From Kushneria marisflavi (lineage in GTDB: Bacteria > Pseudomonadota > Gammaproteobacteria > Pseudomonadales > Halomonadaceae): a stretch of 64,000 nucleotides of DNA. Shown piece after piece: positions 31,352 through 32,412 of the stretch (position 1 is the stretch's first letter; every line of letters begins with the position of its first letter). The stretch spans positions 372,001 to 436,000 of the forward strand of contig NZ_CP021358.1 in the NCBI RefSeq assembly GCF_002157205.1, written 5' to 3'. Under the pieces are notes generated by a model. It was not told where the DNA came from and did no database searches. It saw nothing but the letters and a program-made list of their open reading frames with translations. The translations under genes and the position numbers were made by a program.

Positions 31352-31624
31352 ATGGCCGACTACATGATTACCTGCGATCTAAAGCGCCCCGGCCAGGAAT
31401 ACCATCACCTGCTCAGGGCCCTGGCACGCTATCCGAACAGCCTGCACATTCTCGAAGCCACCTGGCTTGTCAGAACCATGGCCACGCCCGACCTGATTCT
31501 TGCCGATCTCGAACAGTATGTGGACGTTGAAGATCAGATGTTCATTGCCGTGATGCAGACACCGGCCGCCTGGTCGGACAGTCTGGGCGTGGACCGCGTA
31601 CTCGAGTTTTTCAGTCAGAGCTGA
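31352..31624 (+). CDS. orphan Cas2-fold (SinR-like) small protein
   Basis: A 90-residue protein starting MADYMITCDLKRPGQEYHHL, with later EATWLVRT and DVEDQMFIAVM. This beta-alpha-beta pattern, with an early strand ending in D and a second WLV strand, matches small Cas2-fold proteins annotated SinR-like. There is no CRISPR array or other cas gene in the window. AGGAG lies seven bases before the ATG. Function unknown. A toxin-like or nucleic-acid-binding role is possible but unproven. A small RNA candidate follows immediately. Confidence 0.65.
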   Translation: MADYMITCDLKRPGQEYHHLLRALARYPNSLHILEATWLVRTMATPDLILADLEQYVDVEDQMFIAVMQTPAAWSDSLGVDRVLEFFSQS

Positions 31625-31665
31625 GCCCGTTGAAATGTTGCAGGCAACACGATGCATCGAAAAGA

Positions 31666-31707
31666 TGTACAAGTTTTCTTGCAATATCTGTATAGCTTTT
31701 CTATTTT
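31666..31707 (+). promoter_or_regulatory. candidate promoter with dyad for the Rsm-type sRNA
   Basis: TTGCAA (31679-31684) and TATTTT (31702-31707) are 17 bases apart. The -35 box overlaps a dyad TGTACAAG-TTTT-CTTGCAAT (31666-31685) that resembles, with shorter spacing, the GacA/UvrY box TGTAAG-N6-CTTACA. The match is imperfect and its distance from the start is shorter than in pseudomonads. Confidence 0.35.
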
Positions 31708-31712
31708 CTCCC

Positions 31713-31837
31713 TACAGTCTTGGCGTGCAGGCATTCGGCACTCTGATGGATCAGAGTGACGCTCAGGGAAGAGGTAGTCGGCCGCAATGTCTGTCATTGG
31801 AGTATGAAACCCCGGCAAGGATGTCGGGGTTTTTTTA
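31713..31837 (+). ncRNA. candidate Rsm/Csr-type regulatory small RNA
   Basis: About 125 bases without a coding frame end in a strong rho-independent terminator (31808-31814 with 31825-31831, then seven Ts). Four GGA motifs are present at 31748, 31767, 31799 and 31819. The first is in the TGGA loop of a perfect 8-base hairpin (31739-31758), and the last is in the loop of the terminator hairpin. Three fit ANGGA. GGA motifs displayed in hairpin loops define RsmY, RsmZ and CsrB-like RNAs that titrate RsmA/CsrA. Size, terminator and motif placement all agree. The exact 5' end is inferred from the upstream promoter. Confidence 0.6.
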
Positions 31838-32015
31838 TGCCTTGACCCCAGCATTCAATATCCGAACGTATCGATCACATCGCCAGGCATGAACCTGTCT
31901 TTATCCGGGCTGGATGGCAGTCAGCACGTGCAGAAGCAGCACGGAAAACGTGCCAGTAGCAAAGGCTTGTTGAGATGAAGCCGGAAAGAGGCTGGAAGAC
32001 GTACTGGAAAGGAAA

Positions 32016-32091
<76 letters not shown>

Positions 32092-32100
32092 ATGGCGCTC

Positions 32101-32129
32101 ATCATAAAAGCCCCCATCGGCAAACACAA
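32101..32129 (-). promoter_or_regulatory. promoter of tRNA-Gly
   Basis: On the minus strand TTGTGT (32129-32124) and TATGAT (32106-32101) are 17 bases apart, ending ten bases before the mature tRNA 5' end. Confidence 0.5.
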
Positions 32130-32220
32130 GTCACGCGCTACAAAGTGCTGTTTTTGAGGCAAAAAAGCATCGAGTAAAAAAAATTTCGATTTTAGGGATC
32201 AAATTGGCAACCGGGGGGTC

Positions 32221-32315
32221 TTAATAGGCAAGACGTTCTTCTTCAGTCGCTGAGGGATGCGTCTTGGTTTAACTGTTCCTTGCATGGCCGCCACCTCGTT
32301 GTGGCGGTCTTTTTA
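32221..32315 (+). ncRNA. candidate structured small RNA
   Basis: No coding frame is apparent. A long hairpin pairs CAAGACG (32229-32235) with CGTCTTG (32260-32266), with an inner stem around TTCAG-TCG-CTGAG and a pyrimidine-rich TTCTTCTTC segment. A rho-independent terminator follows (CCGCCAC 32288-32294 with GTGGCGG 32301-32307, then TCTTTTT). No gene on this strand precedes the terminator for over 500 bases except the small RNA near 31.8 kb, which has its own terminator. So an independent transcript is the simplest explanation. No clear promoter was found, and the 5' end is not defined. Confidence 0.38.
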
Positions 32316-32412
32316 TGTCTACGTCATGTAGTCATGCAAAGAGAACCCGACTTTTTGGTCGGATCCTACCCTCACACTGCTGCTTCCCGGCACCATGGCA
32401 TTGCGGTTTCAC

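Follow-up and report, generated by a model that had tools for sequence, protein, structure and literature searches.

The window, a 64,000-nucleotide stretch of the 3.67-Mb single contig of Kushneria marisflavi (genome G000), carries on its plus strand a candidate CsrA-sequestering small RNA, some 125 nt long and with a presumed start (31714..31838). The RNA lies between an 89-codon gene on the same strand (31355-31624) and a tRNA-Gly gene on the opposite strand. The 89-codon gene, which the earlier reading took for an orphan Cas2-fold gene, has no Pfam or NCBIfam match and is found in 7 of the 10 Kushneria genomes, where its product is 70-93% identical to the protein encoded in the window. Past tRNA-Gly lies a second conserved RNA-like unit (32205-32322, plus strand), whose terminator ends with GTGGCGGTCTTTTT. 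Over 32205-32320 it is 93% identical in G001 and 87% identical in G006; its fold z-score is -4.3, it has no Rfam match, and its core can also be read in G003, G004, G008 and G009.

Four GGA motifs are present in the window RNA (31748-31750, 31767-31769, 31799-31801 and 31819-31821, plus strand). The first occupies the tetraloop of a perfect 8-bp hairpin (hairpin 1, 31739..31758, CACUCUGA-UGGA-UCAGAGUG; core AUGGAU), and the second the loop of a short hairpin, CUC-AGGGAA-GAG (hairpin 2, 31762..31773), in which CAGGGAAG matches the motif CANGGANG. The third (AUUGGA) lies outside the hairpin loops and does not fit ANGGA. The fourth sits in the loop of the intrinsic terminator (31807..31836, AAACCCCGGC-AAGGAU-GUCGGGGUUU), which bears CAAGGAUG; two of the three ANGGAN loops thus match CANGGANG. 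Moreover, nine letters of the terminator loop, CAAGGAUGU (CAAGGACGU in G006), are the last nine of the CsrA SELEX consensus quoted in PMC4347634, RUACARGGAUGU. Reading and folding therefore bear out the four GGAs, the tetraloop hairpin, the GGA in the terminator loop and the three ANGGA sites that had been described by an earlier, sequence-only reading of this DNA, and add hairpin 2, which brings to three of four the GGAs that the minimum-energy fold places in loops. The fold z-score of the G000 RNA was -4.1 and -5.0 in two folding runs. Seven T follow the terminator. The terminator is detected by the scan written for this work; the standard scan tool lists none between 31600 and 31900, probably because the stem uses part of the T-run.

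A nucleotide search for the RNA unit in 97 relatives gave DNA matches in five genomes: G000, G001 and G006 (K. avicenniae) match over the unit, G054 and G074 at the terminator end only. The RNA is 98.4% identical to that of G000 in G001 (123/125) and 88.7% identical in G006 (110/124). These values far exceed those of the four-fold sites of a neighbouring dihydrolipoyl-dehydrogenase-like gene (65.8% and 50.9%, respectively) and of the stretch from the terminator to the tRNA gene (51% and 43%), and the flanks of the RNA are barely alignable among the three genomes. Conservation extends over most of the RNA, not over the loops alone. On comparative sequence grounds, the RNA unit is real.

Its distribution is narrow. 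A model built from the G000, G001 and G006 copies (R1) was run on 201 genomes of the family, with the more stringent filtering applied to large sets; its three source sequences scored 150, 152 and 131 bits, and everything else at most 34.2 bits. Run unfiltered on the expected loci of G003, G004, G008 and G009 and on six other Kushneria loci, R1 gave at most 12.5 bits, and reading the interval between the 31355-31624 gene and the tRNA gene in those four genomes revealed no window RNA. None of 13 weak R1 hits inspected (12 and L044) was a homologue, three being canonical Rsm-like RNAs, and a GTDB-wide exact-pattern scan returned one record, from Kushneria avicenniae. The RNA was found in 3 of 10 Kushneria genomes, G000 included. 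In a tree of mutS-fdxA DNA the holders are not one clade, the non-holder G009 grouping with G000 and G001 (support 86/97), which implies loss or transfer of the window RNA. Its not being found in the other 7 of 10 genomes indicates that it is dispensable.

In the three genomes that have the RNA, all four GGAs are retained, the third one included, and G001 has a fifth. Of the 18 letters in the three ANGGAN hexamers, three differ between G000 and G006; each is one of the 6 N positions, and the 12 fixed ones are unchanged. By my own arithmetic, the probability that all three changes hit N positions by chance is C(6,3)/C(18,3) = 0.025. In G006 the hairpin 2 site reads CAAGGAAG and that of the terminator loop CAAGGACG, and hairpin 1 has the core ACGGAU. 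Hairpin 1 of G006 has lost two stem pairs, and its minimum-energy fold pairs the GGA with UCC, so that the GGAs in loops number 3/4 in G000, 3/5 in G001 and 2/4 in G006; the fold z-score is -5.1 in G001 and only -2.0 in G006. No compensatory base-pair change was found in the three aligned sequences. Loss of the GGAs with free drift of the stems, the outcome that had been said to count against the Csr/Rsm assignment, is thus not what the relatives display, although one stem has weakened.

The GGA count is in itself ordinary: at least four GGA occur in 1186 of 3000 dinucleotide shuffles of the window RNA. More specific features are rarer, at least three ANGGA being found in 54 of the 3000 shuffles, at least two CANGGANG in 5 and at least three GGA in loops in 3; the combination of at least three ANGGA with at least three GGA in loops was found in none. 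As a genomic control, 40 stretches of G000 totalling 800 kb were taken together with the window (864 kb in all), and the 125 nt preceding each terminator-like site were folded (n = 367). The stretch containing the RsmZ-like RNA described below was put into this sample on purpose. At least four GGA occur in 21 of the 367 windows. At least two CANGGANG occur in three, namely the window RNA, the RsmZ-like RNA and an RNA after tyrS, whereas the reversed motif reaches two copies in none and its reverse complement in two. At least three ANGGA together with at least three GGA in loops were found only in the window RNA and the tyrS RNA, and in no window with either control version of the motif. The window RNA, the RsmZ-like RNA and the tyrS RNA stood out again under a stricter intergenic filter (27 G000 windows). 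The same scan of 400 kb of G001 (167 terminator-ended windows) gave two windows with at least two CANGGANG, the tyrS RNA and L243. Since L243 has no GGA in a loop, motif count alone yields false positives.

CsrA-consensus loops, selective conservation and co-ranking with the RsmZ-like RNA make a Csr/Rsm-type RNA the best reading of this locus, as first suggested from the letters. Some of the same observations would also suit an Hfq-type RNA that acts by base pairing, its conserved single strands targeting mRNAs and its GGA loops being incidental or serving a second function. The seven T after the terminator, the conservation of the whole RNA rather than of the loops only, and the conserved stretches away from the GGAs (AGTCGGCCGCAATG and TGTCATTGGA, for example) are in keeping with it. 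I nevertheless consider it unlikely, since among 367 windows the CANGGANG content is common only to this RNA and the RsmZ-like and tyrS RNAs, and since the substitutions in the loops spare the CsrA core.

Another alternative concerns the origin of the transcript. Upstream of the RNA, a candidate sigma-70-like promoter can be read on the plus strand (31679..31707; TTGCAA at 31679-31684, a 17-nt spacer and TATTTT at 31702-31707). The -35/-10 pair pointed out earlier is weak: by my count it agrees with the consensus at 8 of 12 positions, and it falls below the scan threshold, the scan tool reporting 0 promoters. The RNA could instead be the processed 3' end of the mRNA of the 89-codon gene, perhaps still binding CsrA, in the manner of RsmW, which derives from the 3' UTR of PA4570 according to PMC9308961. 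The reading frame of this gene ends at 31624, some 90 bases before the RNA and in the same orientation, and no terminator was seen between gene and RNA; the weakness of the promoter points the same way. The comparison of genomes does not. Conservation sets in abruptly near 31665, identity from the stop codon to 31662 being only 59.5% in G001 and 46% in G006, with more than 120 gapped columns; the spacer is about 125 nt longer in G001; and the gene occurs without the RNA in G003, G004, G008 and G009. A processed 3' end is thus rather improbable. It is hardly credible at all that the unit amounts to no more than a strong terminator whose GGAs are fortuitous, or to a very short coding sequence: shuffles of these 125 nt commonly contain four GGAs and open frames span the region in G000, but conservation far exceeds that of four-fold sites, the placement in loops is beyond all shuffles, the frame from the ATG at 31746 passes through the terminator, and a small peptide starting there was rejected because this codon is ACG in G006.

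Returning to an independently transcribed Csr/Rsm-type RNA, the region in which its promoter would lie is itself conserved. Positions 31663-31713 are 86% identical to G000 in G001 (44/51) and 77% in G006 (37/48). They contain a conserved direct repeat of TGTAYARSTTTTCT (31666..31702, plus strand; copies at 31666-31679 and 31689-31702, 23 bp apart), which spans the -35 and the spacer and whose copies read TGTACAATTTTTCT and TGTATAGCTTTTCT in G006. TGTATAGCTTTTCTA is kept in the promoter region of all three genomes, and TTGCA-N5-TGTATAGCTTTTCTA, searched with zero mismatches, occurs only in these three among the 97. As a regulon marker this motif was rejected: at 3 mismatches its matches do not exceed background, since a reversed control pattern matches too. 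Promoter readings for RpoN, sigma-E, sigma-28 and LexA were dropped after comparison by eye with the consensus sequences. A TGTACA...TTGCA pair is found upstream of the tyrS RNA as well, and the two RNAs may or may not share a regulator.

The direct repeat overlaps a GacA-box-like dyad (31666-31683) that had been proposed from the sequence. With 3 mismatches to the box tested, TGTAAG-N6-CTTACA, the dyad is at chance level: the window has 8 such matches, against a chance expectation of 10.0. GacA itself was sought with NF007018, the UvrY/SirA/GacA family model (cut-off 280 bits) and the sole one on which the absence of GacA is judged here; it reaches at best 66.5 bits in G000. It matches in 3 of the 10 Kushneria genomes with a best score of 110.3 bits and nothing higher, whereas in a set of 121 family genomes it scores at least 193 bits in 102 of the 111 non-Kushneria genomes and is above its cut-off in 69 of the 121; nine non-Kushneria genomes have no match at E<=1e-30. 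Control of the window RNA by GacA was therefore rejected, the box being at chance level and no Kushneria protein being of GacA grade. No exact GacA box was found in the eno-fdxA loci of the 10 Kushneria genomes, described below. Elsewhere in the family, G031 has a perfect GacA box (L106:597-614 / L086:1714-1731) upstream of a canonical Rsm-like RNA, and a GacA-grade protein (286.7 bits). In the four g5 loci examined, gacA is directly followed by uvrC; in G000 (G000:C1:917500-919800, L174) the place before uvrC is taken instead by a tRNA-Ala and by frames of phage-like appearance, as judged by eye.

Assignment to a known RNA family was tried with Rfam. The Csr/Rsm models gave no match at the gathering score in the whole window, and the check that had been proposed, run over 31400-32400, returned nothing for RsmX, RsmY, PrrB/RsmZ, CsrB or CsrC even at E<=10. 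The same database also failed to recognise as Rsm the eno-fdxA RNAs of G000, G009 and G002 (loci L142, L138 and L146), L108, L134 and the tyrS RNA. As a test of membership Rfam is thus insensitive in Kushneria, and its negative result for the window RNA is weak evidence.

These other RNAs bear directly on the place of the window RNA in the genus. A second model, R2, was built from 17 canonical Halomonadaceae Rsm RNAs chosen by hand from printed segments. Run on Kushneria, it found mostly terminators, and it gave the window RNA only 21.6-24.1 bits, within the range of ordinary terminators; it also exposed a locus of G009 (L137) between eno and fdxA, near mutS. A search with fdxA then located an RNA like that of L137 at the same place across Kushneria (the names eno, fdxA, mutS and tyrS were assigned by eye from translations). 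This RsmZ-like RNA is present in 10 of 10 Kushneria genomes (L138-L147; 9 of the 10 copies were extracted and aligned by script, that of G006 was read by eye); in G000 it lies in the eno-fdxA interval at G000:C1:838322-838446, minus strand. A figure legend in PMC4353343 draws rsmZ of Pseudomonas with fdxA and mutS as neighbours. The window RNA does not adjoin fdxA and mutS; another RNA is at that Pseudomonas-type position. A third candidate, found by the motif scan, lies between tyrS, which it follows, and a 16S rRNA gene (G000:C1:2497961-2498085, L200:17961-18085, plus strand). Its 125-nt window contains 6 GGA and three CANGGANG. Within the scope covered for this RNA, G000 and 400 kb of G001, the G001 copy (L242:1316-1546) is 91.8% identical over 231 bases and keeps every GGA. 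The claim that the window RNA is the CsrA-titrating RNA of its lineage accordingly does not hold, with the eno-fdxA RNA in 10 of 10 genomes, a further candidate at tyrS and the window RNA in 3 of 10. Two more loci exposed by R2, L108 (G003) and L134 (G002), look like further accessory Rsm RNAs; L134 (G002:C1:2506568-2506684, minus strand) has 8 GGA in its printed segment and adjoins genes that look copper-related by eye.

Outside Kushneria, following up low-scoring R1 hits uncovered canonical Rsm-like RNAs with many GGA hairpins in other Halomonadaceae, and by coordinate comparison 12 of the 53 weak hits listed fall in such RNAs. Canonical RNAs of this kind are seen at L032, L039, L045-L073 and L102-L107, and they are twinned in many g11 genomes. 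Rfam at a relaxed threshold gave no Rsm match at the gathering score for L019, L032 and L039. In six R1 alignments (of 17 matches at 10 loci), most of the similarity is in the terminator and the short stretch that precedes it, with a GGA-loop hairpin added in the best one (L019). The weak matches that G054 and G006 gave at the DNA level are confined to the terminator end. Since the R1 matches rest mainly on the terminator, they speak neither for nor against kinship of the window RNA with the canonical Rsm RNAs.

From these comparisons, I think it probable, while leaving real room for error, that the window RNA is an accessory CsrA-sequestering RNA that is transcribed independently and does not depend on GacA. 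G000 has one CsrA gene, of standard sequence. An RNA of about 125 nt, transcribed on its own and ending at the terminator, would bind CsrA dimers through its three ANGGAN hairpin loops and possibly through the fourth GGA as well; the CsrA so bound would lower the free pool. Its low GGA count, 4 as compared with 7 in the 125-nt window of the RsmZ-like RNA, speaks somewhat against this reading. Three good sites would hold one or two CsrA dimers, which suggests an accessory sponge, not a bulk titrator, acting beside the eno-fdxA RNA. The switch would be something other than GacA, presumably working at the conserved promoter repeat. A broader scenario is put forward tentatively, and I lean slightly against it: Kushneria may have lost GacA while keeping CsrA and at least three sponge RNAs in G000, one of them genus-wide, and the sponge layer may have been rewired, here through a regulator that reads the TGTAYARSTTTTCT repeat. 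If CsrA sponges do outlast the loss of GacA, Csr control could plug into other signals, and Kushneria, with one CsrA gene in G000, would be a simple system for the origin, loss and rewiring of sponge RNAs. The present analysis gives candidates for Rsm-like RNAs in several genera of the Halomonadaceae, and three in one Kushneria genome. In the table of a 2020 review (PMC7366521), the CsrA-mimic RNA of Halomonas anticariensis is given as unknown, and the open-licence part of the literature on CsrA, sRNAs and GacA in Kushneria and Halomonadaceae yielded no description of these RNAs.

Within its own genome, the window RNA resembles the RsmZ-like RNA in length, in ending at an intrinsic terminator, and in carrying several GGAs and two CANGGANG sites; it differs in its number of GGAs (4 against 7), its spread (3 against 10 of 10 genomes), its sequence and its upstream region. 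With the tyrS RNA, found in the same motif scan, it shares GGA hairpins, but the sequence and the place are different, and the tyrS RNA has 6 GGA. GGA hairpins and a terminator are likewise common to it and the canonical Halomonadaceae Rsm-like RNAs (alignment A4; g11, g15, g19, g20 and g23), several of which have terminator letters resembling its own; unlike it, they have more GGA hairpins and a core of the GAACAGGANGTTC type. The closest functional parallels are RsmV and RsmW, described in PMC7366521 as accessory RsmA sponges specific to P. aeruginosa, independent of GacS-GacA and probably of independent origin. RsmV is an established sponge with four CANGGAYG stem-loop sites (PMC9308961), to which the ANGGAN loops of the window RNA are close. 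The neighbours differ, and with about 125 nt the window RNA is shorter than RsmV and RsmW, of 192 and 224 nt. The likeness is one of proposed function, that of an accessory sponge.
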